A stretch of 64,000 nucleotides of DNA from an uncultured Lachnospiraceae bacterium. GTDB taxonomy: Bacteria; Bacillota; Clostridia; Lachnospirales; Lachnospiraceae. Below the pieces are notes generated by a model. It ran no database searches, was not told where the DNA came from, and worked only from the letters and a program-made list of their open reading frames with translations. Below, piece by piece: positions 9,707 to 30,251 of this stretch. Location: NCBI GenBank assembly GCA_947631505.1, contig CANRLR010000001.1, positions 124,001-188,000 of the forward strand, given 5' to 3'. The position numbers and the translations under genes were made by a program. Each line of letters begins with the position of its first letter. The stretch's first letter is position 1.

Positions 9707-9755
9707 AAAAAAAGCTCCTGTCCACAATCCTCTTTCGAGGAAAGGGACAAGAGCT
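9707..9755 (-). terminator. T-box-controlled terminator upstream of trpE
   Basis: An 11-bp stem, AGCTCTTGTCC with GGACAGGAGCT (one G-U), is closed by a loop and followed by seven T residues on the minus strand. It is mutually exclusive with the antiterminator. Confidence 0.88.
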
Positions 9756-10016
9756 GTTCATTCTCCTGCGGTACCACCCAAATTGACTATAAAGTATAAA
9801 TTTCGCTTTACAATCCACTCAATCATGCACTATCATGCATTCCTGTAGATAACGGTTCAGGTCTCCGTCAGCGTCTACTCTCATATTCCAAAATAAGATT
9901 TCAAGCTGCCCTCCCAAGTCCATTCACTATTCATCTGCTATCGTCTCGCACCAAACGACGACTCTCTGAAAACATAAATGAATACCTACTACTCTCGGTC
10001 AACGGTTTATTTTATA
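9707..10016 (-). promoter_or_regulatory. T-box leader (tRNA-Trp sensing) of the trp operon
   Basis: The intergenic stretch between trpE and gpsA reads as a T-box riboswitch on the minus strand. The conserved T-box GGGTGGTACCGC lies at 9768-9780. The distal Stem I motif GGTGCGAGAC lies near 9940-9955. The specifier region has the GAA-NNN-AC pattern with UGG at 9920-9922, a tryptophan codon. Downstream, CAGGAG can pair with CTCTTG as an antiterminator, or CTCTTGTCC can pair with GGACAGGAG as a terminator. Uncharged tRNA-Trp would favour read-through into trpE. T-box identity is sure; the specifier position follows the usual pattern and was not folded computationally. Confidence 0.93.
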
Positions 10017-14660: not shown

Positions 14661-17483
14661 TTATTCAAGATTAAACAAGGTACGCTCCGTAATCATAATA
14701 TCCTGTGAGGTTTCAGCTCCCAAAACAGAATTGTATTTGTCCTTCTTCTTTCGGTATTTTCTACCTTGTAAAGTAAACCGAATGCTCTGATATCCCTTTT
14801 GCCAGTCGGATAAATGATAAGGAACGTAAAAAGTGATACTGCCTTGAGCCGGAACTTCATATCCTTTGATTCCATTACTGCCATTGATGTCAAGAACCGT
14901 TTTTTTAGTGAGCGCCGTTGTCTCATCCAATGTTGACTGAGGTATCAGTTCTCCGGAAAGAGATTGTTCATTTTCCTTCATCAACTGAATCTTCTTTATA
15001 ACACCCGGCTCATTATTGATATTGTTCACAGTCACTTTTACATATAATACTTTATCTTTTTTATACTTGGCACTGCTATTATAATCAATCATCACCGAAT
15101 CATCGGTCAATTTCTCATAAAATCTCTTTTGTTTGTCTACCGTAACAATCAACGGGTCAACAGTTGCCGTCTGTTTATTCATAATCTGGTAAGCCACATT
15201 TGAAAAGTCATTGACAATCCCCGAGGATTCTGTCGCGCCAAGTAACGTCGAATGATTGGTATCGGAATTACTTCCTCCATGCACAATACCTACGTTCTTA
15301 TCATCATAACCATTACTTCCGCTATGGTGGTCCGCCACCCCATCATGGAATACATCCGCATTGGAGTTAAAGAACGATTCCAGATATCCATATTTCATAT
15401 ATTCCTCTATCGGGGCTGCTATTTGATTGCCGGTACTCAATTTGATTTCTGAAGGATAAAAAGTCCACATATTCCACAAATAGTAACAGCTCTTCTTCGC
15501 TTCATTATCCAATGCCGTGCTGCCACAACGATCCTCCTGCACCAGTGTCCGCTCGTAATAACCGGTTGTTTTCGCTTTATTTTTCGCTGCATCCTTCATT
15601 GTCTCCGGATTCAGCTGAATCGTTTGCATTTTGGGCAGAAGATCCTCATAAAAAGTTCTTATAAAACCATCTTTATGTCTTGCTAACATATCAAATTGAA
15701 CGGTACACAGATAAAGCTTTGCCATATTATTCAAGCTTCCATTCGAATCCAAATGTTTGGATATCGTATCCTCTGTCACATACATATGAGTATCTGCATC
15801 AGAGGAATCCGGATTCACACCGACATTTACCATTTTCCCTAAATTCTGTGTCATCATCAATGGGAGATTCGCATTGTTGCACAACCGGTCCAGTATTTTA
15901 TATACCAAGGTCCAGTCCAAATCATTATCAGCAAAGGTCGCTACTTCAAACTTATCGTATTCTTCCGTGTCTTCTTCCGGATAATGATAATCTTTATCTC
16001 CTTTTATATACCGATAGTATGTTTCATATACATTGTCGATATTATCGGTTGATTTTGTATAAGCCCCCACATAGAACATATCGGCACGCTCAATCATATC
16101 TAATGTCTCCGGGGTATCCTTCTCTGCAATTTCATTTAATTCTGCCGGAGTCATCGCAATCGTTTCCATAACAAAATTGTCGCATTCCTCCTGGTCTTTA
16201 AAGGTAAACAAAGAACGTTTTAGAACATCATTTCCTTTTAGACCGGCATAATCAAATGTATAGGTATGTTCTGCCACTTCCGGGGTATCCGACAAAGTTA
16301 TTTTTGTACCCCAGTTCTCCGCCAACTTCATCATTGTTCCGGTTAAATCCGGATCACGGGAAGCTTCATAGAGAGTTTTATTTCCTCCCCATGTTGTCGA
16401 GGTTATTTTTGTTCCATCTGCACTGAAATAATAAAAACCACCACTCCAAATACCGCCGCCTTTGTTCCATTCCTGATTGTACTTTTCCCTATATTCTGCC
16501 GGAACATCTGCCTCGTTTTTATAATATTTCCACCGGTCTGCATCGGTTCCTGTCTTTGTGAGAATCCATTCATCACAGTCACTCTCACTGGCAAAACCAT
16601 AGTCACCTTTTCCCGGCTCTACTGCTACTAAAAAGCCCTCATTGGTATAGCTGTTGGACACACCTTCCTGCAGCACTTTTTTCTCATAAGAATAATTCCA
16701 GTTCTTGTAGTTCTTTAATACCTTTTTCGGAATCTCGGTGTTTTCAAAAAGCTTGGGATATTTTTCCATAAAATACTGCACCGTCTGTATCCGTCCGGAA
16801 TACTGATGTGCCTTATAGTCTTTCTGAAAAGCTCCGAAATCATACCCTGCTTCTTCAATGTCGTCAGCAGTAATCTCAACCTGATAAAGTTTTTTATCTA
16901 CTTCGACAAGAGGTACCGTTTCCTGCTCTTCTTCCGTGCCAACTTTATATACATTATACTGATAATTGCAGAACCACTGTCCAATCGCTGTTGGCAAATC
17001 AAAATATCCACCCAAATCCTGCTTATCGACAAAATTTTCATTCGCACCCTTTCTGTCACAGGCATCCATGCCGATCTGCACTAAATCCAGCGGATAATTT
17101 GGATTATCTGTATTCAGGTAAATCAATTGCTGCTGTGCGTGGTCCGGAACAATTTCTAATGCAACAAAAGGATTCTCTTTTGTACCCTTTTTGGCATTTG
17201 CCTTTGCCACCGGCACCTCTTTGGAGCATGGCTCTTTACCGGAGCCAAGAGAACCTTTTTGATTTCCGCCCTCTGCCGTAACCGTTGTCAGGGAAGATGT
17301 CAAGCCATCCGGCAACGGATCTCCTTTTGTCTCCCCCTCTTCTTCTACCTGCTTGACATAAGGTTTTTTCGGTATGAACTGACCAAATACATGATTCACC
17401 GTTCCGGCAAGCAGTCCTGCCGTACAAAGAATAGTCAATCCTATCGTCAAGCCGGCATATTTGTGAAAAATATTTTTCTTCAT
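14661..17483 (-). CDS. 940-aa membrane-anchored exoprotein of the pilus locus
   Basis: 940 aa. Residues 1-8 are basic, then a hydrophobic segment at about 9-33 forms a signal or anchor; the remainder is hydrophilic and probably outside the cell. A segment near residue 105 reads FVALEIVPDHAQQQLIYL, which recalls the start of the DUF5057 family of large Lachnospiraceae surface proteins (from memory, low certainty). Many Trp, Tyr and Asp residues and WNKGGGIWSGGFYYF-like segments suggest a ligand-binding or adhesive ectodomain. The C-terminal 150 residues look like beta-sandwich (VLYVKVTVNNINNEPGVIKK, GSITFYVPYHLSDW). It is the last gene of the pilus operon, 14 bp after a pilin-like gene, with a good AAGGGGG site. 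Candidate pilus-tip or pilus-associated adhesin. Confidence 0.75.
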   Translation of the reverse strand: MKKNIFHKYAGLTIGLTILCTAGLLAGTVNHVFGQFIPKKPYVKQVEEEGETKGDPLPDGLTSSLTTVTAEGGNQKGSLGSGKEPCSKEVPVAKANAKKGTKENPFVALEIVPDHAQQQLIYLNTDNPNYPLDLVQIGMDACDRKGANENFVDKQDLGGYFDLPTAIGQWFCNYQYNVYKVGTEEEQETVPLVEVDKKLYQVEITADDIEEAGYDFGAFQKDYKAHQYSGRIQTVQYFMEKYPKLFENTEIPKKVLKNYKNWNYSYEKKVLQEGVSNSYTNEGFLVAVEPGKGDYGFASESDCDEWILTKTGTDADRWKYYKNEADVPAEYREKYNQEWNKGGGIWSGGFYYFSADGTKITSTTWGGNKTLYEASRDPDLTGTMMKLAENWGTKITLSDTPEVAEHTYTFDYAGLKGNDVLKRSLFTFKDQEECDNFVMETIAMTPAELNEIAEKDTPETLDMIERADMFYVGAYTKSTDNIDNVYETYYRYIKGDKDYHYPEEDTEEYDKFEVATFADNDLDWTLVYKILDRLCNNANLPLMMTQNLGKMVNVGVNPDSSDADTHMYVTEDTISKHLDSNGSLNNMAKLYLCTVQFDMLARHKDGFIRTFYEDLLPKMQTIQLNPETMKDAAKNKAKTTGYYERTLVQEDRCGSTALDNEAKKSCYYLWNMWTFYPSEIKLSTGNQIAAPIEEYMKYGYLESFFNSNADVFHDGVADHHSGSNGYDDKNVGIVHGGSNSDTNHSTLLGATESSGIVNDFSNVAYQIMNKQTATVDPLIVTVDKQKRFYEKLTDDSVMIDYNSSAKYKKDKVLYVKVTVNNINNEPGVIKKIQLMKENEQSLSGELIPQSTLDETTALTKKTVLDINGSNGIKGYEVPAQGSITFYVPYHLSDWQKGYQSIRFTLQGRKYRKKKDKYNSVLGAETSQDIMITERTLFNLE

Positions 17484-17496
17484 ATCGGATGCCCCC

Positions 17497-18096
17497 TTAC
17501 TGGTTTCTCATATTTATATCTCTCTCACAATTATATTCTGAGACATCATCTTTCAACTTCATTGTAATATGCAAGGTTTCATTTTTCGTATCCTCATTCT
17601 CCACTACCTCGCCTTTAAAATCATCTACATCCTCTACCAACATATGTTTTTTATCATTCTTTAATAATACGACCGTAGTCTTATCATTATCCGGATCTGC
17701 GGCTCCCTGTTCTTCTAACAAAGTTTTTCGAGAGGCAAAATAAACCGTTTTGGCTGAATCCATATACCAGTAATAGTACACATCAGCCATGTTCAAAGTT
17801 TCTGTTGCCTTCGCATCACCGTCATTTTTAACTCCCTTTTTCACTAAGACAAGGAACTTACAATCCGTAAATTTCGTATCGTCCCATTTTGCCTCACTGC
17901 TCTCCTGTACATAAGTCGAGATATGATTGAGTGCATCTTTTGCCTGCTCCTGCAACGCTACTTTCGCCTGTGTCATTTTCATACTCTGGGAACCATAGCC
18001 AAGCAGGCCGATCACGGCCAGCATAACAATAGAAGAAACGGCAATCGCAATCAATAGTTCCACAAGGGAATAGCCTTCTTTCTTCATTTTTTTCAT
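17497..18096 (-). CDS. Type IV pilin-like minor pilin (PilW/PulJ position)
   Basis: 199 aa. A class III prepilin leader of eight residues ends in KKEG, followed by YSLVELLIAIAVSSIVMLAVI with Glu at +5. That would be cut by PilD before the Tyr. The rest (about 165 residues) is hydrophilic and not recognised. It lies between the GspH-like gene and the 940-aa gene. By analogy with other systems the minor pilins form the tip-initiation complex. Confidence 0.85.
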   Translation of the reverse strand: MKKMKKEGYSLVELLIAIAVSSIVMLAVIGLLGYGSQSMKMTQAKVALQEQAKDALNHISTYVQESSEAKWDDTKFTDCKFLVLVKKGVKNDGDAKATETLNMADVYYYWYMDSAKTVYFASRKTLLEEQGAADPDNDKTTVVLLKNDKKHMLVEDVDDFKGEVVENEDTKNETLHITMKLKDDVSEYNCERDINMRNQ

Positions 18097-18139
18097 TTTT
18101 ATCCCTCATTTCTGTATGTGCAAATACGATTCACACAGT

Positions 18140-18628
18140 CTAATCAATATAATGTCTTCCGGTCTCTTTCACCAACACAATTTTATACGTATAACTATCG
18201 GAAGAAACCTCAATTTCCGATGGCGGTTCATCACCATCCACCGCCTCGAAAGCACCATCTTTTTTTCTTATATGAAAGCTCTTTGTGCCGCCACTGCCCA
18301 GTTCTGTCCCATCCATTTTCACACTCATGGTACTGCTCCCTAAATTTTTCCCCTCTTTACTTGTATCGCAGGAAGAATCCTCCGAATAATATAGAATATA
18401 ACTTCCATCCTGTTCATATAAATGCATATATACCGGCTTATTCTTTGCCATACTCTCTGATTTAAGTTCAGACAGCCCACTGTTAATTCCATTTGCAAGA
18501 CCTTTGGCATCCGCCAGTTTCATGTATCCAAAACTATATGCCGCAGCACCGACAAGAATTCCCATGACAGCAATTACAATAATTAATTCAACAAGCGAAA
18601 ATCCTTCTTTGTCCTTCTGTTTTTTCAT
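18140..18628 (-). CDS. Type IV pilin-like minor pilin (GspH/FimT-like)
   Basis: 162 aa. The leader is nine residues, MKKQKDKEG, then FSLVELIIVIAVMGILVGAAAYSFGYMKLADAKGLANGI with Glu at +5. The body (LYEQDGSYILYYSEDSS, GTELGSGGTKSFHIRKKDG) resembles GspH-type minor pilins. GGAGGCGG precedes the ATG. Confidence 0.87.
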   Translation of the reverse strand: MKKQKDKEGFSLVELIIVIAVMGILVGAAAYSFGYMKLADAKGLANGINSGLSELKSESMAKNKPVYMHLYEQDGSYILYYSEDSSCDTSKEGKNLGSSTMSVKMDGTELGSGGTKSFHIRKKDGAFEAVDGDEPPSEIEVSSDSYTYKIVLVKETGRHYID

Positions 18629-18657
18629 TCCTGCCGCCTCCTTTCCTCTGGCATATA

Positions 18658-20955
18658 CTATTGTTCATTCTTTTTCCAATCCTGATAAGATACACACTTT
18701 TCCAATTTCGTAGAATCCTGTGCCGCCCCGCCATTTAATGCCTTAAATATTTTACACAGGTCTTCGTCCTTCTTTATGATTTCCAAAAGGTTTCCCACTA
18801 AAACCATATCTGCTTTCAAAGTATGATTTCCTGTTACCTTTACCTGTCCGGTCGACAAAATCAGACCTGTAAAATCAGCATCTACCGTTACGTCTCCAGT
18901 AGCAATTACAATACCCTTGGAATCACTGCTGATCGTATGAGCACCTTTCACAATCGTAATTCTTCCTCCCGTGGTACTGTCATCCTTCGTTGTAATCGTA
19001 TTCGTAAGATTATTTACTTCGGAGACATCAATGATTTTTCCAGACACCAGTTTATAAGGATCTGCAAAATCCATAGCATTCAGACGGATATCTTCTATCT
19101 CTGCGTCACTTTCATTCGTATCACTCTGTCGTTTTTTCCGTTCTTCGCTTCCGGAGGATAACAGGTTCAGACATCTTCCCAAATAACTCAACGCCATTTT
19201 CCTTCCGTCATCCAGCAGAACAGTCTGAGGTTTTCCTGAAGAATCATAGTAATTAGCAGACTGCATTCCTAAGTTTCCATTTGTTGCTTCATAATTGTAT
19301 ACAATATTTCCTGCAATTAAATAGAGGTTTCCGGAAAAACTGCTATTTCCCATATCCGAAGAAACAAGATAACTCTGTGCCTTTTCCGCAAGCTGTTCCC
19401 GGCTGTTAATGGCATTCCCATCTTCATCATTGACTGTCAGATTTTCTTCTCCTGTATAGAAATCTTTAAAATATTGATTCGCACTTGCCTCATTTTTAAA
19501 GTGTAAGAATAAAAACACATAGCCTGCACTATTGTAATTCGCTACATATGGCTCAGCAGCATCCAGATAATCCTTTAATCCATTACTGGAGTTTAATAAA
19601 TTTGCTTTGATAGATGCTTCTGCAGTATCTGTCAGCTCCGCTGTTGCCAACGGATTATGTTCTCCCGGAATAAAGGAATCCGGTACAAGATATGCCAGCT
19701 GATTGCTCTTCACCGACATCGATTCTCCTGTCATAATATCCGATTCTTCCGGTGTTAAAGATTTACCTGTTTTTTTGTTCTGCGATACAAAAGCACGGCC
19801 AGCCAATATCATTTTTTCCAGATTCGCAGCATCCAGTGTCGTATTGACACCATTTATCAAAATTGCACTGCTATAGTCAGCATTTGCCTTTTCGGAAGCA
19901 CTGCTAAGATTCTGTTTATTATAACTGTATCCGTAATATTTTCCCTCTAATGTTACATCCGTACTGTTATCTTCAATATTCAGATCATTGGAAATATAGG
20001 CGTTTTCGTTCATATGAAACTTCGTTTGATTGCCGTCGGAACCGCCATCCCCATATTTCTTTAACCGGATATTCTGAAGCCACAGATCTCCGGCTCCTGA
20101 TTCCCCTTGAACCTTGACCTGTGCTCCGGTAAAGACGTCCAAGCTTCCTCTGCTGATTATCGTCTTGCTGTTAAAATCCACCTTTGCTCCCGGTGCGATC
20201 TGAATACCGGAATCTTTTTGTCCACTATATACATTTCCGGTAAAAGAAGTTTTTATATTTGCCATACTGTCTACCGACAGCATATCATCCGAAATAGAAA
20301 TGTAATCTTTTAATTCATCAAAGGTAGAATCCCCCTCGAATTTATAGTCCGGTACCCGGAACACGATATCTGTGTTTATTGTAGAACGATATCCGGAAGA
20401 ATCCGTATAATCAATCAATAAATTTTTTAAAGTCAGCATATATCCCTTTTTACTGTCATAATTCGTTACGAGCTGAAGGTTACTTCCTGCTTTCACCTGA
20501 ACAGCATCGGGAACAGTAGAGAACTTTTTCAGCTTATCCAGCACAGAACTACTGCACGGAATCAGTTCTCCCGCCCTATTTTTTATATCCTCTTCTGTAT
20601 ATACTGTATGGTTATCATTAATCTTTTTGGCAAGCTCACTCAGATATTTTTTCGCATATACTTCTTTCATTGAGGCTTTCTCTGCCGTATAATTTTCCAA
20701 TACTTTTGTGTATGCCTCTTTACTGGCATCCCCGGCATATTCCAGTAATCCGGTACGGACTTCTTCTAAAATACCTTCTGTCTGATAAAAATTATCGGCA
20801 GAATTCCGGTCCACCAATACCGTAACAAGATATTTACTCGCCACGGTCAGTACAGTAAGTCCAATTGCCGAAAGAAATACAACACCAATGATTACTGAAA
20901 CCAAAGAGGAACCTTCCCTTTTATTTTGTTTTCGGCTTTTCAACTTCCGTACCAT
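18658..20955 (-). CDS. Very large (765 aa) PilX-like pilin-related protein
   Basis: 765 aa, several times the size of a usual minor pilin. The N-terminus MVRKLKSRKQNKREG is followed by SSLVSVIIGVVFLSAIGLTVLTVA, a PilX-type class III signal; Ser replaces Glu at +5. The long ectodomain has beta-solenoid-like stretches rich in Val, Asp, Gly and Asn (FTGNVYSGQKDSGIQI, GIVIATGDVTVDADFTGLI). These resemble bactofilin-like or polymer-forming repeats. It starts three bases after the PilV-like stop. It may be a tip-located or adhesive minor pilin. The prepilin reading is well supported; the ectodomain role is inferred. Confidence 0.8.
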   Translation of the reverse strand: MVRKLKSRKQNKREGSSLVSVIIGVVFLSAIGLTVLTVASKYLVTVLVDRNSADNFYQTEGILEEVRTGLLEYAGDASKEAYTKVLENYTAEKASMKEVYAKKYLSELAKKINDNHTVYTEEDIKNRAGELIPCSSSVLDKLKKFSTVPDAVQVKAGSNLQLVTNYDSKKGYMLTLKNLLIDYTDSSGYRSTINTDIVFRVPDYKFEGDSTFDELKDYISISDDMLSVDSMANIKTSFTGNVYSGQKDSGIQIAPGAKVDFNSKTIISRGSLDVFTGAQVKVQGESGAGDLWLQNIRLKKYGDGGSDGNQTKFHMNENAYISNDLNIEDNSTDVTLEGKYYGYSYNKQNLSSASEKANADYSSAILINGVNTTLDAANLEKMILAGRAFVSQNKKTGKSLTPEESDIMTGESMSVKSNQLAYLVPDSFIPGEHNPLATAELTDTAEASIKANLLNSSNGLKDYLDAAEPYVANYNSAGYVFLFLHFKNEASANQYFKDFYTGEENLTVNDEDGNAINSREQLAEKAQSYLVSSDMGNSSFSGNLYLIAGNIVYNYEATNGNLGMQSANYYDSSGKPQTVLLDDGRKMALSYLGRCLNLLSSGSEERKKRQSDTNESDAEIEDIRLNAMDFADPYKLVSGKIIDVSEVNNLTNTITTKDDSTTGGRITIVKGAHTISSDSKGIVIATGDVTVDADFTGLILSTGQVKVTGNHTLKADMVLVGNLLEIIKKDEDLCKIFKALNGGAAQDSTKLEKCVSYQDWKKNEQ

Positions 20956-20957
20956 AG

Positions 20958-22040
20958 CTATTCTCCTTTCGACGTTTCCAAATGGGTAATCCGATTCAAT
21001 TCTGTAAAACTTGTTTCCGATTCGTCATAAACATCGATTATTATCTTGGCAATTCTCTTACCGGATGAGTCATGTTGAATCATTTCAGAAGATGCCGCAA
21101 GATTCGTCGGTACACCATTTGTATAATAAGCTGCCCATGCAGCCTGCCCATGAGAGGTATCAAAATTCAGGGAATAGCCTGTTTTCGGTTTCTTTACTTC
21201 TTTCTGACAGACAAAATATACATGTATCTTTTCTGCCTCTGCCTGTGTAATCGAAGAATCAAAATCTACCTCCACACTTTCTGCTGCATTATCTTGGATA
21301 ATATTATAGAAAAAGTAAATGTTTTCCAGCTTGCTGATTTCAATTTCCGTATCCTCCACATCTGCCGAATAGGTATAGGTTTTGCCATTATTCGTATAAC
21401 GATACAAGTAATACCCTCTCACATTATACACATCCGCATTTTTTTTATGAACACTCAGACACAAGGTTCTCACCATATTATTTTTAATTTCTGTTTCCGA
21501 TTTTGTCGGATTACTATATAAAAAATTACTGAAAGCTGTATCTGCTTGATCCGTTTCGGACAGGACCACATTCGTATCTGCATACACTTCTTTCAGTTCC
21601 GGCATAGCATAACCATTATATTGGGCATCTATTTTATCCCCATTGACATCAATGTTATTCCCACTGGCATCCTTCGTCTCATAGTTATAGTCAATGGTTA
21701 CCTTTGCCTGATAGGTATAACCATCTTCGGTAACTTTTTTGGTAAGAGAAGTTTTTTTTGCCGAGGCATCATAAGGGGAATCTACGGTCCAGCTGCTCGC
21801 TGACACAGAACCTCCCGAAACAAGCTTCTCTTCAATCTGCTCAAAAGTTTCACATCCATTCAATTCTTCTGCTACAGACTGAGCAACAATCGTTGCCCTG
21901 TGAGTATCCTTCCCGTCCGAAGCAGCTACTGACGCATGGGCAAAATAAGCGAGAATGGGCATGGAAAGGACAGCTAGTATGGCAACTGCAATAATTACTT
22001 CAATCAAAGAAAATCCTTCTTTTGCATTGATCCGATTCAT
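20958..22040 (-). CDS. Type IV pilin-like minor pilin (PilV/PulI-like, 360 aa)
   Basis: 360 aa. The leader MNRINAKEG is followed by FSLIEVIIAVAILAVLSMPILAYFAHASVAASDGKDTHRATIVAQSVAEELNG, which is the PilV pattern including the AQSVAEEL helix. Glu is present at +5. The C-terminal half is not recognised. AAAGGAGAGG precedes the ATG. It belongs to the minor pilin set V-X-H-W. Confidence 0.86.
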   Translation of the reverse strand: MNRINAKEGFSLIEVIIAVAILAVLSMPILAYFAHASVAASDGKDTHRATIVAQSVAEELNGCETFEQIEEKLVSGGSVSASSWTVDSPYDASAKKTSLTKKVTEDGYTYQAKVTIDYNYETKDASGNNIDVNGDKIDAQYNGYAMPELKEVYADTNVVLSETDQADTAFSNFLYSNPTKSETEIKNNMVRTLCLSVHKKNADVYNVRGYYLYRYTNNGKTYTYSADVEDTEIEISKLENIYFFYNIIQDNAAESVEVDFDSSITQAEAEKIHVYFVCQKEVKKPKTGYSLNFDTSHGQAAWAAYYTNGVPTNLAASSEMIQHDSSGKRIAKIIIDVYDESETSFTELNRITHLETSKGE

Positions 22041-22065
22041 CCGATCCTCTCCTTTCGTCCCTGCA

Positions 22066-22806
22066 CTAATTTTTTAATACACCAAATATACTATCGGTTC
22101 CGATTGAGATTCCCTTAACATCCGGCTCCTTATATGGCTTGCCGTTTCCATTCAATTCAAAATAATTAATATTTATTGTACCGGTCAGTTTTCCGGTCTT
22201 CACATCATAATTCAAGTTTGTATTCGTTACAGCCATATGCTCCTTATTGTCGGAAACCCAGTCTAATGCTTTCATAATCTGTTTCATCGTACCCGTCATC
22301 TCAATTTCATAAGACGAATACTTTCCAACCATATGGTCAACAGTCGTCTGCTCCTCCGGTGATGCTTCAATCCCGGAAGGAGAGGCCGCTTCCGTTTCAC
22401 TCGTATTGGAAACCTGATTCTGCTGTTCTTCCGCGGAAATAATCTTACCCTCTTTTAAGAAATCTATCGCCTCACCCGGTTTAATTGCCGTGACACGGAC
22501 ACCACTCTTGACCATCATCAGATACACATTGTATATTGCTTTCTGCTGGGTCATCATACACGGAAATTCTTTTGTATACGTATCAACCGCCTTTTGGTGC
22601 TTTTCCGAGGTTTCCTGCAGCTCATTTACTTTTATCTGTAACTGGCTCAGATAATTGACCCGATTCCTGAACTGTCGTGTTTGATTTTCAATTTGTGTAA
22701 CCGTATCCTGATTACGCTGAAAGATAAAGAAGAAGGCACATAACAGCACAACTAATCCGGCACTGATAAGAATTGCTTTCTTTGCCGTCGTACTTAATTT
22801 TCCCAT
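22066..22806 (-). CDS. pilO: Type IV pilus alignment protein PilO-like
   Basis: 246 aa. A short cytoplasmic tail, one transmembrane helix at about residues 11-29 (ILISAGLVVLLCAFFFIF), a coiled-coil segment (QIENQTRQFRNRVNYLSQLQIKVNELQ) and a ferredoxin-like periplasmic-type domain match PilO architecture. It would pair with PilN in the inner-membrane assembly platform. Its ribosome site lies inside the end of the pilM-pilN gene, one base before its ATG. Sequence similarity to PilO is weak; position and topology carry the call. Confidence 0.8.
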   Translation of the reverse strand: MGKLSTTAKKAILISAGLVVLLCAFFFIFQRNQDTVTQIENQTRQFRNRVNYLSQLQIKVNELQETSEKHQKAVDTYTKEFPCMMTQQKAIYNVYLMMVKSGVRVTAIKPGEAIDFLKEGKIISAEEQQNQVSNTSETEAASPSGIEASPEEQTTVDHMVGKYSSYEIEMTGTMKQIMKALDWVSDNKEHMAVTNTNLNYDVKTGKLTGTININYFELNGNGKPYKEPDVKGISIGTDSIFGVLKN

Positions 22807-22807
22807 C

Positions 22808-24433
22808 TTACTGCACCTCCTGTTCGGAAGCTGAAACCAGCTTTTTATATTGGAACGTTAACGTATAGGTATACTGTTTCCGCCCTGTTACCTCGTCACT
22901 TGTTTCCGCAATTTCATCAATCCATACTTTCTCAATATTATCAATCTTATTCAACTGGATACGAAGCACCGGCAATGATGACAGCCGGTCTGTTGTTGTT
23001 GCACTGATCGTCACCTTTTCTTCATCGGACTGAATACTCTGAATCCGGAATGATTTTGGTACAATCGCTGAAATCTGTGTCAATAATTCATGAAAATGGT
23101 TATTATGCGTATCTGTATAATTTCTAATGATCTGTGTCAGTAAATAATTATTCTCAATGGATACCAAATCATTATACTGCTGTTCAATCGGAATCAGGGC
23201 ATTATATCTCGATTTCATGGCATCTCTTTCTTCTTTTGCCACAAAGAGCTGAATAAATGATAACCCTGCCAGAACAACACTTAACAGCATCAAGCCGGAA
23301 AAAATAAGAACTGCTCCTGTCAAAGAACCTTTTTTCGCTTCCCGGTTTGCAATTTCCCTTGGCACAAAACGTACCGGTTCAAATACAGAGCCAAAACAAT
23401 TCAAATACTGCAAAATCGCTGCATCAATCGTAATTTTGCGGTTAAAACGAATTCCTTGGATTTCATTTGGGGTGGTAACCGGAATTCCCAGTTCATTCGA
23501 CATGAGTTCATGAATACCCGCCACACTGCATCCCTGTCCGGTACAGATAATATTGAGAATCGGCTGTTCTTTATATTTCGTATTATAGTATTCAATCACA
23601 CGGGATATATTACTAATTAAAAACTCACCGCTGTCCGTCACTTCAATTCGCTTCTCTACCGAAAAATCATTTTCCGGATTGGAAGCATTCAAATTATGCA
23701 GTAACACCCGCTGCGTTGTGAGAATCTGATATGCCCTTTCATAATCATTGGCCTGAAAAACCTCTTCCTGTATCATTGCTTCCGTAAAGACATTTACACC
23801 ATACGGTACCACTCGCTGCAACAATAGTTTGTCGGATGTAATAACATTGATCAGTGTACTGTTCCGATTTACCTGAATTGCCATCGTAACGCCTTCCTTT
23901 ACCTGACGTCTCATCATCTGGAAGATACCGTTACCGTCCGCATCCACAGCAATCATATTAAAGCCACAGGCTTCTGCCAGTGCGTAATAGCTTTCAACAA
24001 GCTCCGAAGGTGCTGCAAAAACACGGACATCCTGTACTTTGCCATTCTCTCCGTCTTCCCACTCTTTTCCCTGAACCTGATAGGAAAATATATATTTTTC
24101 CATATCAACAGGGAACATATCCGGAACTTTTGCCATCACGACCTGCTGCTGTTTTGCCTTCTGCACAGCCGGTATCACCGTTTCACGGCTGGCAATTTTA
24201 GAAGAGGCAATGGTAAAAATCACATCTTTGGTACGAATTCCTTTTTCCTGACAAGCCTTTTTTATCCGGCGTGCCACTTCTATTACATCTATGATAACGC
24301 CTTCCTTCACCGCATTTTCCGGTGTGGGAACACGAACACAGCCATATACCGTCGGTGTACTGACACCGTTCTCCATATGAACGATATGAGTAGTCTTTTC
24401 CCCGACACGGACTACTACGACCTTCTTAGCCAT
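22808..24433 (-). CDS. pilM: PilM-PilN fusion protein
   Basis: 541 aa. Residues 1 to about 350 are an actin/FtsA-like PilM ATPase fold (VVVRVGEKTTHIVHMENG, VIFTIASSKIASRETVIPA, FNMIAVDADGNGIFQMMRR, GQGCSVAGIHELMSNELG). Residues 371-396 are a transmembrane helix. The remaining 145 residues are a PilN-like coiled coil and globular domain (PKSFRIQSIQSDEEKVTISATT). In most systems PilM and PilN are separate and PilN's N-terminal peptide binds PilM. Here the two are one chain. Followed at once by pilO. Confidence 0.88.
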   Translation of the reverse strand: MAKKVVVVRVGEKTTHIVHMENGVSTPTVYGCVRVPTPENAVKEGVIIDVIEVARRIKKACQEKGIRTKDVIFTIASSKIASRETVIPAVQKAKQQQVVMAKVPDMFPVDMEKYIFSYQVQGKEWEDGENGKVQDVRVFAAPSELVESYYALAEACGFNMIAVDADGNGIFQMMRRQVKEGVTMAIQVNRNSTLINVITSDKLLLQRVVPYGVNVFTEAMIQEEVFQANDYERAYQILTTQRVLLHNLNASNPENDFSVEKRIEVTDSGEFLISNISRVIEYYNTKYKEQPILNIICTGQGCSVAGIHELMSNELGIPVTTPNEIQGIRFNRKITIDAAILQYLNCFGSVFEPVRFVPREIANREAKKGSLTGAVLIFSGLMLLSVVLAGLSFIQLFVAKEERDAMKSRYNALIPIEQQYNDLVSIENNYLLTQIIRNYTDTHNNHFHELLTQISAIVPKSFRIQSIQSDEEKVTISATTTDRLSSLPVLRIQLNKIDNIEKVWIDEIAETSDEVTGRKQYTYTLTFQYKKLVSASEQEVQ

Positions 24434-24538
24434 CTACCTTTCCTCCCATAAAATAATTTCTTTTGTTGTTTTGAAAACACTCTTTCTCTTGCCTGTTATT
24501 GAACAATAATGCTTTCAAAGCAACAAAATCCGAAAACA

Positions 24539-25315
24539 CTACGATATCAAAAACATATTCAAATACCAGTTATAAATCTGATTCCCCCACAATACAGCAA
24601 TCAATACGCCAATGGACAAATACGGTCCAAACGGAAATCTCCCGTTTTCCTTTGTGATAAGAATTTTCATTCCCTGAACAATCACGCCAAGAACAGAACC
24701 AATCACAACAGCAAACAGACCATGTCCCCATCCAATACATAAACCGGCGCATGCCATCAATTCCACATCACCAAGTCCCAGTCCGCTCTTTCCGGTAACC
24801 GCCCGAAACAGGAATGCACATAATAGCAGAAAAAGGCTTACAAAAAAGAAGCCAATTACATAATAATACCACTGTTCCAAATGTAATAATAAATGTACAA
24901 TTCCAACTGCAAGAACAACCGCGTCCGCCCCTGTAGGAATCAACATCGTTCGATAATCAATGACACTGAGTACCAGTAGTGCAGATACCATAATACAATA
25001 TAACACACTATCCATATTCAGTCCATTTACAAAAAATACCAACAGATACAAAAGTCCATTCAGGCTTTCGATTATGGGGTATTGTGCTGAAATCTTTGTG
25101 CCGCAGTACCGGCATTTTCCCTTTAAGAACACCCAGCTGAAGAGCGGTACTAAATCGTACCACTTCAGCTTGTGCCCACATACCATACAATGAGAACCCA
25201 CTGTAATCAGGTTTTCCTCTTTCGGTATCCGGTATATACATACATTAAGAAAACTTCCTATCACGATACCGTATAAAAATATAATTATGTAGAGGATGAA
25301 GTGCTCCGGATTCAT
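24539..25315 (-). CDS. pilD: Prepilin peptidase (A24 family)
   Basis: 258 aa, polytopic. The N-terminal methylase-type domain has GSFLNVCIYRIP and two CxxC pairs (CMVC, CRYC). The catalytic aspartates are in VIDYRTMLIP and SGLGLGDVELMA (GxGD motif). It removes leaders from the pilin and the four minor pilin-like proteins in this operon. GGAGAACCCAC precedes the ATG. It follows the major pilin gene. Confidence 0.95.
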   Translation of the reverse strand: MNPEHFILYIIIFLYGIVIGSFLNVCIYRIPKEENLITVGSHCMVCGHKLKWYDLVPLFSWVFLKGKCRYCGTKISAQYPIIESLNGLLYLLVFFVNGLNMDSVLYCIMVSALLVLSVIDYRTMLIPTGADAVVLAVGIVHLLLHLEQWYYYVIGFFFVSLFLLLCAFLFRAVTGKSGLGLGDVELMACAGLCIGWGHGLFAVVIGSVLGVIVQGMKILITKENGRFPFGPYLSIGVLIAVLWGNQIYNWYLNMFLIS

Positions 25316-25358
25316 GTGGGTTCTCCTTAAATTCTTTTAATCGTACACAGCGTACCGA

Positions 25359-25862
25359 TTAGTTGCTTACAACAAATGCTTTTCCACCAGCTGTTTTTGA
25401 AAGAGTATCACCATATCCGGTTTCATTATACTCAGAAAGAACAGCTTTGTTACCATCTGTACTTGCAAAAGTCATAATCGTATTAGAGGCAGTGTCATAT
25501 TTACAATAAACCTTTGCCCCTTTGTTTTTGTCAGCCTGCAGTTCAGTATTACCATTGCCAAGGACCTTTTTCATTGCTTCGAAAACTTTCTTATCATTCG
25601 TATTAGCTGGCACCGTCGCACCATCATACAGGAATGTACCCGTACCGGATACTTTTGTGTCAGCAACACCTGTTACCAAGGCAGAATTAACAGCATCCAG
25701 TGTTGTCAAATCTTTACTTTCCTTACTCTTTGCCAAATAAGGAATAACGGCTAGTGCAACAACACCAATCAGAATAGCCATAATTGCGATTACGATAATC
25801 AATTCAACAAGGGAGAAGCCTTCTCTCTCGCCACTTAAATACTTCTGAAGTTTTTGTTTCAT
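25359..25862 (-). CDS. pilA: Major type IV pilin
   Basis: 167 aa from the ATG at 25862, after AGGAGAG; an upstream in-frame start would read through the 5' leader. The leader is 15 residues, ending EREG, then FSLVELIIVIAIMAILIGVVALAVIPYLAKSKESKD with Glu at +5. The mature protein is about 152 aa. It has its own promoter and long leader, as expected for an abundant subunit. The globular part (DAVNSALVTGVADTKVSGTG) is similar to Clostridium PilA proteins in size. Confidence 0.92.
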   Translation of the reverse strand: MKQKLQKYLSGEREGFSLVELIIVIAIMAILIGVVALAVIPYLAKSKESKDLTTLDAVNSALVTGVADTKVSGTGTFLYDGATVPANTNDKKVFEAMKKVLGNGNTELQADKNKGAKVYCKYDTASNTIMTFASTDGNKAVLSEYNETGYGDTLSKTAGGKAFVVSN

Positions 25863-25943
25863 AATTTTACTCTCCTTTTTTAATATTTTTTGCTTTATGG
25901 GAGAATTCCCCACTTCAAAAGAATTCACTCCACTCCACATTTT

Positions 25944-25968
25944 GTCTGAATCAGTATCCAATTCAGAC
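25944..25968 (-). promoter_or_regulatory. Hairpin in the pilA 5' leader
   Basis: GTCTGAAT pairs with ATTCAGAC (8 bp, 9-base loop) in the transcribed leader about 80-100 nt before the pilA ATG. No T-run follows, so it is more likely a stability or processing element than a terminator. Confidence 0.5.
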
Positions 25969-25978
25969 ATTTTACATT

Positions 25979-26007
25979 ATTATACCGTATTTATCCACTT
26001 TTTTCAA
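25979..26007 (-). promoter_or_regulatory. Strong internal promoter for pilA
   Basis: TTGAAA (26002-26007) and a perfect TATAAT (25979-25984) with a 17-bp spacer lie between pilC and pilA. The start site would be about 110 nt upstream of the pilA ATG. Confidence 0.87.
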
Positions 26008-26054
26008 GTCATCCATAAAAATTATTTTCTATTTTTTCCTTTTTCTATTCCTTT

Positions 26055-27272
26055 TTATGCATTTCCCGCATTTTGATAAATAGACAGCATCGGCATTAAT
26101 ACAGCACCGATAATTCCACCGACCAATACTGCCAGCACGATAATGATTGCCGGTTCCATTGCGGTGGTAAGATTTTTGGTAGCTTCTTCTACTTCCATTT
26201 CATAATACTCAGCTACCTTATCCAGCATCTGCTCTGTTGTACCGGTCTCCTCACCGATTCTTAACATATGGGTTACCATGGGCGGAAATACGCCAGAGGA
26301 CTGCAGCGGTTCCGACATCGGAATTCCCTCCATAACCTCTTGCCGGCATCCTTTAATCGCCTGACGGATGATCCGGTTCTCAATAACATCTGCCACAATT
26401 TCCAATGCCTGCACGAGCGGCACACCGGACATAATAAGGGTTGACATTGTCAAAGAAAATTTTGCGGACGCATTTTTAACCGAAAAGTTACGGAACATCG
26501 GGATTTTTAATGCAATAAAACTCGTCGTTTTTTTTCCCCATTCGGTTCCTTTTGCATAAATGATAAAACCAAAAAACAGAATAAGACCAATTGAGAGAGG
26601 CACAACATTTCCCGTCACAAATTTACTGGCAGCAATAACCGCTAACGTAAGTCCCGGGAGCTCCTCGTCCATAGAATCAAATGCCGACTGAAAATTCGGA
26701 ATCACCGTTGACAAGAGGATAATGACTACAATAATTGCCACAATTAATACCACGATCGGATAAATCATGGCAGAACGAACCATGGATACCAATTTCATAT
26801 CTTTATCAAACTGTTTACAAATACGGTCAAAAGAAATCTCCAAATTACCCGTTGCCTCTCCGGCCGCCACCATATGAATCAGCAAATCCGGAAACACCTT
26901 TCCCTCTGCTGCCATAGCATTCGCAAGAGTATCGCCCTTTTCCACATTTACCTGTACATTAAATAATGCCTTTTTCAAATATTTGTTTTCCGTCTGGTCC
27001 TGCACCATCCGGAGCCCGTCAATCACTGTTACACCTGCTGTCAAAATACTGTAGAACTGTTTACAAAAAATGGTAATATCCTTTTTCTTCACAGGATTAC
27101 CAATCGTAATATTCCAACTGGCGTCACTCAGTGCATTGGATTCTTTAATTTCAAGAACTACACTGCCATCTCCTTTTAACTTGGCAATTGCCGCTTCCTC
27201 CGAAGACGCCTCCGTAAAACCTTTTTTCTCTTTTCCATACTTGTCAGTAATCAGGTATTTGTATCTTGCCAC
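26055..27272 (-). CDS. pilC: Type IV pilus platform protein PilC
   Basis: 405 aa with two GspF domains. Cytoplasmic segments include DITIFCKQFYSILTAGVTVIDGLRMV and FSLTMSTLIMSGVPLVQALEIVADVIEN; MLRIGEETGTTEQMLDKVAEYYEMEVE is the second-domain signature. Three transmembrane helices are visible. PilC couples the PilB and PilT motors to pilin insertion or removal. It lies downstream of pilT and before the pilA promoter. Confidence 0.95.
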   Translation of the reverse strand: MARYKYLITDKYGKEKKGFTEASSEEAAIAKLKGDGSVVLEIKESNALSDASWNITIGNPVKKKDITIFCKQFYSILTAGVTVIDGLRMVQDQTENKYLKKALFNVQVNVEKGDTLANAMAAEGKVFPDLLIHMVAAGEATGNLEISFDRICKQFDKDMKLVSMVRSAMIYPIVVLIVAIIVVIILLSTVIPNFQSAFDSMDEELPGLTLAVIAASKFVTGNVVPLSIGLILFFGFIIYAKGTEWGKKTTSFIALKIPMFRNFSVKNASAKFSLTMSTLIMSGVPLVQALEIVADVIENRIIRQAIKGCRQEVMEGIPMSEPLQSSGVFPPMVTHMLRIGEETGTTEQMLDKVAEYYEMEVEEATKNLTTAMEPAIIIVLAVLVGGIIGAVLMPMLSIYQNAGNA

Positions 27273-27289
27273 CGCAAATCCCCCTTTTA

Positions 27290-28342
27290 TTAAATTAATT
27301 TTCTTATCAGGCTTCCCTTATCTTGTGCGAACAGAAGTGCGTCCTCCTTAGTTATTGCCCTTGCGCGGTATAATTCAAACAATGCATCATCCATTGTGAT
27401 CATTCCCATCTGACGGCTGGTCTGAATAATGGATGGAATCTGATGTGGCTTCGCTTCACGAATCAAATTACGGATGGCACTGTTCGCATACATAATTTCA
27501 AATGCTGCCACCCGGCCGCTCCGGTCTGCCGTCGGCAACAGCTGCTGCGATATAATTGCTTCGAGCAGAGTAGCCAGCTGAATCCGAATCTGAGCCTGCT
27601 GATGAGTCGGAAATACATCAATAATACGTTCCACTGTCGGCACAGCTCCGATCGTATGTAACGTAGAGAATACAAGATGTCCTGTCTCTGCTGCTGTAAC
27701 CGCTGTCGCGATGGTATCCAGATCTCTCATCTCTCCTACCAGAATCACATCCGGATCTTCACGAAGTGCAGCACGGAGAGCTGCTGCATAAGACTGTGTA
27801 TCAATTCCGATTTCACGCTGATTCACAACGGATTTTGCATGACTGTGCAAATACTCAATGGGATCTTCCAGCGTAATAATATGTTTGCTGTATTTTTGGT
27901 TAATAATATTAATAAGAGAGGCCAGTGTAGTAGATTTACCACTACCGGTCGGACCCGTTACGAGAACAAGCCCCCTCTTCTTTGTTGTCAGTTCCAAGAC
28001 CGAATCCGGGAGTCCTAAGCTCTCCGGTGTCGGAATTTCTGTATTTACAAGACGAATGACAAAGGATAATGTCCCTCGCTGTTTAAAAATATTAACACGG
28101 AACCGTCCTACCCCGCGAATGGCATAAGAAAAATCCACCTCACCATCTTTGTTGAACCGTTCAACCAGCCTTCCCGGAATCATCTGCTCTACTAATGACT
28201 TTGAATCCGGCGGCAGAATCCGGTCCTCTGTTAAATTTACCAATACGCCATTGACACGGCATTTGGGTGGAATTCCCACCGATACATGCAAATCGGATGC
28301 TCCTATCTGTCTTGCTCTTGTCAGTAATTCATCAATTTTCAT
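27290..28342 (-). CDS. pilT: Pilus retraction ATPase PilT
   Basis: 350 aa from the ATG at 28342, after AAGGGGAC; a longer frame starts in an unlikely acidic extension. Walker A GPTGSGKST is at residues 130-138, with Walker B VILVGEMRD and GHLVFSTLHT. The C-terminal AIRNLIRE motif, specific to PilT, is intact, so the pilus should retract (twitching or DNA uptake). The gene follows pilB closely. Confidence 0.95.
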   Translation of the reverse strand: MKIDELLTRARQIGASDLHVSVGIPPKCRVNGVLVNLTEDRILPPDSKSLVEQMIPGRLVERFNKDGEVDFSYAIRGVGRFRVNIFKQRGTLSFVIRLVNTEIPTPESLGLPDSVLELTTKKRGLVLVTGPTGSGKSTTLASLINIINQKYSKHIITLEDPIEYLHSHAKSVVNQREIGIDTQSYAAALRAALREDPDVILVGEMRDLDTIATAVTAAETGHLVFSTLHTIGAVPTVERIIDVFPTHQQAQIRIQLATLLEAIISQQLLPTADRSGRVAAFEIMYANSAIRNLIREAKPHQIPSIIQTSRQMGMITMDDALFELYRARAITKEDALLFAQDKGSLIRKLI

Positions 28343-28397
28343 GTTGTCCCCTTCTTCTCCTTCACAAAGTGCTGCGTTCATTTTTCAGTCAGCACTT

Positions 28398-30098
28398 TTA
28401 TTCTGTCGCGATTCTCTCTACCTCTGCAATTGAAGTAACACCATTCAACACTAATTTTGCCGCCCCGAGCCGAAGCGTTGTCATTCCCTGTCCCAGTGCC
28501 ACTTTCTGAATTTCTTCTGCTCCTCCGCCAGCGGAAATCACACGACGTATTTCCGCCGTAATCGGCATAATCTCATACACACCGATCCGCCCGCGATATC
28601 CGGTACCATTACAGAACGCACAGCCACCACCACCCGGTTCATAAATATCCGGAGTTGCAGCCCCCCGCAGACGCAGACGCTGCTTATCCATATCCGTAAT
28701 CGCATGCGGTTTCTTACATTTGGGGCACAGCCGGCGAACCAGTCGCTGTGCAATAATGCCGACCGTAGAATCCGCAATCAAATATGGTTCTACCCCCATA
28801 TCCTCCATACGGGTAATCGTACTTGCTGCACTGTTCGTATGCAGTGTGCTTACAACAAGATGTCCGGTTATCGCTGCCTTTACCGCAATATTGGCTGTTT
28901 CTTCATCTCGGATCTCTCCGATCATGATAATATCCGGATCCTGACGCAAAATAGAACGAAGTGCGGAGGCAAAGGTAAGTCCCGCTTTTTCATTCACCTG
29001 AACCTGATTAATACCATCGACATCTGCCTCTACCGGATCCTCTACCGTAACAATATTTACGTCACCGGAATTCAATTCACTGAGCACGGTATACAGCGTT
29101 GTCGATTTACCACTACCCGTCGGACCTGTTACCAAAATAATTCCATGAGGATTTTTTACTAAAGCCTCAAAACGTTTCAATTCTTCCTCCGGGAATCCCA
29201 AATCCTTTTTATCTCTTGTCAGTGCTGACTTAGAAGCCAGACGCATTACCACTTTCTCACCGAACACAGTCGGCAGGCTGGACACACGAATATCGTATTC
29301 CACACGGTTAAAACGCTGTGTCATACGTCCGTCCTGAGGAGCACGCTTCTCTGATATATTCATCCCGCTTATAATCTTAATACGTGCTACAATGGCATTC
29401 AGAAGTTCTTTCTCATACCGCATCATTTCCTGCATAACACCGTCAATACGGAAACGGACACGAACACTGTCCTCCAATGCTTCAATATGAATGTCGCTCG
29501 CACGCTCATTGACTGCCTGTTCAATAATTTTATTTACCAAAAGAACAATCGGAGCATTATCTACCTCATCATTTCCTTCTTCCTGCTTTTCTCTGGCGCT
29601 CTGCTGTTCTCTACGCTCCTTGGAATACGCATCTGCCATTTTCGCAACCTGCTCATTACCGTAGTAACGTTCAATACCAAAATGAATATCCGATGGTGTT
29701 GCAACCATAACATCAATCTGCATATTCGTTACAATGGATAAATCGTCTATGGCAATAATATCCAGCGGGTCTGACATTGCAACCCTCAAAATATTCGGAT
29801 TCTCTTCATCCAGTTCAAATGGCAGTACATTATGCTTGCGCACAATATTTTCCGGTACAAGTGCAATAATCTCCGGTGCCAGCTTTGCCTCACGGATCCT
29901 CGCCAAAGGCAGTCCCATCTGCTGATGAAGTGCCTCGGCAATCTCATTTTCATCCGTCATTTTCAATTCAATTAATGTTTCTCCCAAACGAAGGCCCAGC
30001 TCCCGCTGTTTTTTCAATGCCTGACCTAACTGCTCATCCGTAATAACACCGGCATCGACCAGCATATCGCCTAATCGTTTTTTCTTTCTACCTATCAT
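28398..30098 (-). CDS. pilB: Pilus extension ATPase PilB with tandem MshEN motif
   Basis: 566 aa. Residues 8-31 (starting RLGDMLVDAGVI) and 37-60 (starting RLGETLIELKM) fit the MshEN c-di-GMP motif RLGxxLLxxG...LxxxLxxQ, separated by the five-residue spacer expected for a tandem site; the second has Lys in place of its Gly. Walker A GPTGSGKSTT and Walker B IIMIGEIRDEETA are present. A zinc site uses CPKC and CAFC. It powers pilus extension. Its ribosome site AAGGTGAT overlaps the end of the small upstream ORF. Confidence 0.95.
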   Translation of the reverse strand: MIGRKKKRLGDMLVDAGVITDEQLGQALKKQRELGLRLGETLIELKMTDENEIAEALHQQMGLPLARIREAKLAPEIIALVPENIVRKHNVLPFELDEENPNILRVAMSDPLDIIAIDDLSIVTNMQIDVMVATPSDIHFGIERYYGNEQVAKMADAYSKERREQQSAREKQEEGNDEVDNAPIVLLVNKIIEQAVNERASDIHIEALEDSVRVRFRIDGVMQEMMRYEKELLNAIVARIKIISGMNISEKRAPQDGRMTQRFNRVEYDIRVSSLPTVFGEKVVMRLASKSALTRDKKDLGFPEEELKRFEALVKNPHGIILVTGPTGSGKSTTLYTVLSELNSGDVNIVTVEDPVEADVDGINQVQVNEKAGLTFASALRSILRQDPDIIMIGEIRDEETANIAVKAAITGHLVVSTLHTNSAASTITRMEDMGVEPYLIADSTVGIIAQRLVRRLCPKCKKPHAITDMDKQRLRLRGAATPDIYEPGGGGCAFCNGTGYRGRIGVYEIMPITAEIRRVISAGGGAEEIQKVALGQGMTTLRLGAAKLVLNGVTSIAEVERIATE

Positions 30099-30107
30099 GT
30101 AATCACC

Positions 30108-30251
30108 TTAGTTCTCCGATTCAATTTGCTGTTCCTTTTTATTTTTATTTTTACGCAATTTAATTCCCACAGCGATACCTGCAGCTGCGACCGCTGTAAA
30201 AACAATGATTTTTATTATATACTCACCGAATGCCATCATCACGGTAGCCAT
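30108..30251 (-). CDS. 47-aa membrane protein heading the pilus operon
   Basis: A short reading frame with an AAGGAGG site seven bases before its ATG. It has a short N-terminus (MATVMMAFGEY), one hydrophobic helix (about residues 12-30: IIKIIVFTAVAAAGIAVGI) and a Lys-rich tail (KLRKNKNKKEQQIESEN). Its stop lies ten bases before the pilB ATG. No family is recognised. The perfect ribosome site, hydrophobic helix and tight linkage to pilB make it a probable gene, perhaps a small partner of the assembly platform. Confidence 0.7.
   Translation of the reverse strand: MATVMMAFGEYIIKIIVFTAVAAAGIAVGIKLRKNKNKKEQQIESEN

Follow-up and report, generated by a model that had tools for sequence, protein, structure and literature searches.

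Tapirins, the cellulose adhesins of Caldicellulosiruptor, are reportedly encoded beside a type IV pilus operon and were said, when first described, to be specific to Caldicellulosiruptor. According to a study of Streptococcus sanguinis pilins, PilY1 of diderm pili is absent in monoderms, and the S. sanguinis proteins PilB and PilC, minor pilins with added adhesive modules, were modelled at the tip of the monoderm pilus (PMC9934059). Tapirins have been placed immediately upstream of the glucan degradation locus (PMC7142884), the longest pilin given for the curated set of the PilFind survey had 333 amino acids (aa) (PMC3244431), and the account of the operon in a paper on the Paenibacillus pil locus marks hypothetical proteins and mentions no DUF (PMC9765702). 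Here, we describe a type IV pilus (pil) locus in a window of 64,000 nucleotides (the whole stretch analysed) from an uncultured Lachnospiraceae bacterium, in which a 765-aa minor pilin (X) and, as the final gene, a 940-aa non-pilin (EXO) accompany the pilus machinery. The combination of X and EXO is a new variant of the type IV pilus; X is very probably a PilX pilin of tapirin type, and EXO is probably the tip effector. The two genes and their parts are, in window coordinates:

18658..20955, minus strand: X, 765-aa minor pilin of PilX/GspK type with a predicted tapirin-like ectodomain
20695..20910, minus strand: long N-terminal helix of X, residues 16-87 (AlphaFold2 prediction)
18736..20334, minus strand: residues 208-740 of X, the span matched to tapirin C-terminal domains
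14661..17483, minus strand: EXO, 940-aa putative secreted non-pilin, final gene of the locus
15444..16241, minus strand: single alpha/beta domain of EXO, R1, residues ~415-680 (DUF5057 proteins have three domains of this kind, and R1 is homologous to the first, hhalign 99.2%)
14682..15170, minus strand: C-terminal immunoglobulin (Ig)-like beta-sandwich of EXO, residues 772-934
14664..14684, minus strand: conserved C-terminal tail of EXO, RTLFNLE

X is encoded within a set of four minor pilins in the order V-X-H-W, and glutamate 5 (Glu5) of the prepilin-like N-terminus was found in none of 94 X proteins versus 80 of 81 V proteins. The beta-solenoid-like stretches that a first-pass annotation had claimed for X were borne out by the AlphaFold2 model, in which the ectodomain is a beta-helix of tapirin type. 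No Pfam or NCBIfam family was above cut-off in X; PilX_N was not found in the window protein, was weak in 2 of 28 close relatives and exceeded the cut-off in one fetched relative (L165). Comparison of the X profile with a tapirin profile gave 97.4% over 108 columns, and linking profiles gave 99.9% over 617 (X versus atypical forms) and 99.2% over 339 (atypical forms versus tapirins). The predicted fold, the profiles and the locus together point to a relationship of X with the tapirins, and the beta-helix is a probable polysaccharide grip.

The tapirin loci were those of a genome family (f92) reached through a search with a von Willebrand factor A (vWA) protein from the EXO slot, which had matches in 3 of 299 genomes. 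A pilM-like gene was present in all 13 f92 genomes searched, and all 13 loci were read. In six of them (L167-L171 and L173), X-like genes of 642 and approximately 650 aa lie behind V, although in L171 the second copy is truncated and in L173 it stands apart. Since the 642-aa gene of L170 matched PDB entry 4wa0 (4.3e-217 over 358 residues) and the 649-aa gene of L168 matched 6n2b (3e-82), f92 was inferred to be the Caldicellulosiruptor family. All 11 tapirin-slot genes have mature N-termini without Glu5, and 9 of the 11 were matched by the X hidden Markov model (L172 and L174 were missed). Seven of the 13 loci (L166-L171 and L173) have a nearby gene whose start resembles that of the cellulase CelA. 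In another f92 locus (L175), a DUF5057 protein stands immediately behind X.

Recurrence of the arrangement was assessed by protein searches over 250 Lachnospiraceae genomes, which found X in 62 and EXO itself in 3. A first set of 60 regions was fetched around X matches, and a second set comprised 48 named loci from genome contigs (several genomes being shared with the first) assigned to Lachnospiraceae, Anaerocolumna, Mobilisporobacter, Anaerosporobacter, Haloimpatiens, Clostridium and others. The first set showed the gene order pilB-T-C-A-D-MN-O-V-X-H-W followed by a large frame of approximately 800-2400 aa (individual loci lack a gene or have it in another place), and the second set showed the same order; its recurrence across Lachnospiraceae indicates an arrangement beyond chance. 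The slot behind W was occupied by the EXO family in 54 of the 60 regions and 39 of the 48 loci, by another large frame in 2 (L069, L070) and 4 (L130, L131, L140, L141), by a contig end in 2 (L060, L061) and 3 (L120, L125, L137), and by no large frame in 2 (L064, L082) and 2 (L135, L138), respectively. Of the first-set exceptions, L069 has a 935-aa frame that carries the N-terminal motif of EXO and ends in DLD, the frame of L070 is interrupted by a contig end, and that of L064, which carries the EXO motif, is stopped at 455 aa by a contig end; in L082 the large slot protein is truly absent. In one genome (G068), two tandem minor-pilin sets approximately 18 kb apart on one contig (L083, L084) each have an X and a large frame behind W.

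The window EXO, single in its own genome, had no Pfam or NCBIfam family above cut-off. It is a member, on sequence comparison, of an unstudied family whose longer members bear DUF5057 (PF16480), a domain found by Pfam in 9 of 11 and 24 of 26 EXOs scanned but absent by the same scan from the window protein and its relatives L036 and L037. These longer proteins have three alpha/beta domains, the second being DUF5057 (R1-R2 95.6%; R2-R3 94.6% over a short stretch). DUF5057 was found in 53 of the 250 Lachnospiraceae genomes and in 0 of 14 controls; in 44 of the 53 the best match lay inside a fetched X region, and in 2 more (G092, G233) on the same contig as the X match. In the remaining seven, one gene stands behind X-H-W (L145), one is a remnant (L144), three are ended by the contig (L150, L152, L153) and two are unplaced (L146, L151), because only one unidentified frame lies between them and the contig end. 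In the L144 remnant, a 652-aa EXO fragment comes right after pilB-T-C, and the intervening pilin genes are gone. Across the phylum, DUF5057 occurred in 6 of 398 genomes; five loci were fetched and all five were pil loci, and the sixth genome (G180) corresponds to region L086. Three of the five (L158, L160, L162) belong to family f33, with genome sizes of 5.6-6.8 Mb; there the gene, a divergent one, is located between X and pilB and was seen to be transcribed against the pil genes. The first-pass annotation had named occurrence mostly away from pilus loci as an outcome that would speak against its suggestion of a tip adhesin or binding device; homologues lie mostly within them, and the two large proteins, presented there as additions outside the core machinery, are regular parts of the pil locus in Lachnospiraceae.

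Complete EXOs range from 802 to 2417 aa, and EXO C-termini carry short motifs of the LFDLD type. Of 76 distinct EXOs, 66 fitted a loose pattern for this tail and 74 had Leu at position -2; the pattern also fitted 8 of the 1110 other frames (at least 150 aa) from these loci. A home-made rule recognised one N-terminal hydrophobic segment in 84 of 87 EXOs and a clear A-x-A in 44 of the 87. The window EXO has one such segment, but that it is "anchored", as the earlier annotation put it, is uncertain given possible cleavage. A repeat, 'A-KYP-LF--D--G', seen in the EXOs of L098 and L100 and at approximately residues 206-262 of the window EXO, seems by eye to vary in copy number among close relatives.

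Unrelated proteins also fill the slot. There are vWA proteins in L130, L141, L164, L165 and L166 and PA14 proteins in L131 and L140 (both Lachnospiraceae); in L157 a 1234-aa NPCBM protein precedes the DUF5057 EXO, and the EXO of L158 combines DUF5057 with an ice-binding-like adhesive domain. This variety argues for a contact role. Some of these proteins have similar ends (PLPDLD in the vWA proteins of L130 and L141, PLKDLT in the PA14 proteins of L131 and L140), and hhalign found no common C-terminal domain. The f92 vWA proteins of L165, L166, L176 and L177 end in KKxxLR, as does the DUF5057 protein of L175. As independent swaps are few, docking of the EXO tail on the minor pilins is offered as a hypothesis. 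Enlarged frames of 591-1075 aa were noticed in the place of W in several loci (e.g. L116:12145-14853, L111:4861-6633), the one in L116 combining N_methyl with a galactose-binding-like domain of F5/F8 type C.

Several results weigh against a tip device built of X and EXO. For X, profile-to-sequence searches of the PDB did not recover tapirins, Foldseek E-values for the tapirin match were poor (0.15-0.45), and identity was 13%, so that cellulose binding cannot be transferred to X. The AlphaFold2 model of EXO, which shows an Ig-like C-terminal domain, is weak (mean predicted local distance difference test score 58), and PF05567, the C-terminal PilY1 beta-propeller, had no match in the window EXO or in its relatives (37 further scans, with at least one gene scanned twice). 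Three X-bearing loci with room downstream (L082, L135, L138) have no large slot protein, and weak second DUF5057-like matches occur outside pil loci in three genomes (L147, together with its neighbours, just above cut-off; both L148 and L149 below). The tail is absent as LFxL from the vWA protein of L164 and from the DUF5057 proteins of f33, which end in DRY or NRY (L158, L160, L162); its conservation within one homologous family may be plain homology; and a degenerate DNA search of the own genome gave four places, as many as its reversed control gave. Of these four, one is EXO, two have TGG rather than a stop at the end, and the last is a further candidate. Two further points, the classical Caldicellulosiruptor loci, where the X slot holds a tapirin or two that no large non-pilin follows, and the two whole DUF5057 genes that are unplaced (L146, L151), lowered our confidence in the joint reading slightly, to a moderate level.

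The first of these points favours a reading in which X is the sole adhesin and EXO a folding or assembly partner without a contact role. Between the tapirins and the cellulase-like gene, L167, L168, L169 and L171 have only a 307-aa exported frame; the size range of complete EXOs and the extra adhesive domain of the f33 relative are unlike a chaperone, and we consider such a partner quite improbable. (By eye, the repeats of the 307-aa frame look NHL- or propeller-like.) The near-constancy of EXO in the locus and the hydrophobic segment with its inconsistent A-x-A, by which EXO may stay in the membrane, would suit a part of the cell envelope, such as a gate or collar of the pilus machine in the thick monoderm wall. 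This is unlikely: a contact device fits the unrelated adhesion-type architectures found in the slot elsewhere better than a fixed channel does, none of the 87 EXOs has an LPxTG end, and no cell-wall-binding Pfam family is among those listed for 26 EXOs. Release of EXO as a substrate of a pilus acting as a type II secretion pseudopilus finds some footing in the GspK-like character of X, GspK having been proposed to touch type II secretion substrates (PMC7541494). The presence of a PilT-type ATPase points instead to a dynamic pilus. A Sec product of a monoderm should, moreover, need no pseudopilus for its release, and we regard this route as very improbable.

A tip adhesin or substrate-binding device, as first suggested, remains the best-supported reading, with homologues mostly in pil loci; the suggestion is modified in that relatives of X, the tapirins, have already been solved and both parts are regular in the locus. 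X would cap the filament as a K-type (PilX/GspK-like) minor pilin, its small head replaced by a long beta-helix of the tapirin kind. EXO, presumably exported through its N-terminal segment, would be borne at the tip by the V-X-H-W complex in the role that PilY1 has in diderms, priming assembly and making the first surface contact. Its variable N-terminal part would face outward, and the minor pilins would be the docking site for its C-terminal end, made up of the conserved sandwich and the LFxL-acid tail. Cycles of PilB and PilT would extend the tip and then draw the cell to the bound surface.

The remaining genes of the locus, like X and EXO, are open frames on the minus strand at the positions previously listed:

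28398..30098, minus strand: pilB, extension ATPase with MshEN domain of the c-di-GMP-binding type (Pfam T2SSE 7.6e-139, MshEN 3.1e-19)
27290..28381, minus strand: pilT, retraction ATPase (T2SSE 9.9e-47; named from size and order)
26055..27272, minus strand: pilC, platform protein (T2SSF 2.2e-60)
25359..25970, minus strand: pilA, major pilin, listed start probably too far upstream (N_methyl 4.3e-6, residues 50-71)
24539..25315, minus strand: pilD, prepilin peptidase (A24_N_bact 9.9e-36, Peptidase_A24 4e-14)
22808..24433, minus strand: pilM-pilN fusion (PilM_2 2.4e-14; PilN 6e-4, below cut-off)
22066..22806, minus strand: pilO-like (named from position and length; Pfam gave nothing over cut-off)
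20958..22040, minus strand: V, minor pilin, PilV/GspI-like (N_methyl 2e-6)
18140..18628, minus strand: H, minor pilin, GspH-like (N_methyl 1.6e-7)
17497..18096, minus strand: W, minor pilin, PilW/GspJ-like by position (N_methyl 4e-7)

The gene set of the first-pass annotation (pilB, T, C, A, D, MN, O and four minor pilin-like genes) was thereby recovered, the core being supported by Pfam except for PilO. PilB, PilC, PilD, PilM/N and a major pilin with GFxxxE, as in type IVa pili, are all present, and the second T2SSE protein, between pilB and pilC, was told from PilB as PilT by order and size. The locus probably encodes a monoderm type IVa pilus that can be retracted and bears an elaborate tip, and the MshEN domain of PilB suggests that extension may be under second-messenger control. 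Intergenic gaps are short (2 bp for V-X, 13 bp for W-EXO); beyond EXO follow a hairpin and another frame, presumably rnhB. Elsewhere in the window, a T-box leader RNA was noticed at 9740-10011 (minus strand), upstream of a 487-aa frame.

The reading would give Pfam DUF5057 a functional context, close the reported PilY1 gap of monoderm pili and tie the cellulose adhesins of Caldicellulosiruptor to a pilin family present in about a quarter of the sampled genomes (62/250) of Lachnospiraceae, a major gut and rumen family. More tentatively, and with somewhat less than even confidence, the type IV pilus tip across Bacillota could follow a single modular plan, in which a giant PilX pilin of tapirin-like kind is joined by a swappable non-pilin effector (DUF5057, vWA or PA14) held by a short C-terminal docking tail. 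Tapirins would then be the best-studied members of this pilin family, and DUF5057 proteins would correspond in monoderms to PilY1. Among described systems, S. sanguinis PilB and PilC have their vWA and lectin modules built into the pilins, with no separate large non-pilin. X resembles minor pilins of PilX/GspK type in the loss of Glu5, its place among four minor pilins and the PilX_N match above cut-off in one fetched relative, and differs in a length far above that usual for pilins and in the weakness of PilX_N among close relatives. From the tapirins (PDB 4wa0, 6n2b, 6n2c) it differs in its low identity, its length and the H, W and EXO genes that follow. EXO shares with Pfam DUF5057 proteins the slot, the N-terminal EIVP motif, the first alpha/beta domain and the tail; the window protein has no detectable DUF5057 domain, and a third alpha/beta domain is missing from it. 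Like PilY1 of diderm type IVa pili, it is a very large, apparently exported non-pilin encoded with the minor pilins, and vWA versions occupy its slot in other Bacillota; its domains are others than those of PilY1, which EXO fits in place and logic rather than in family.
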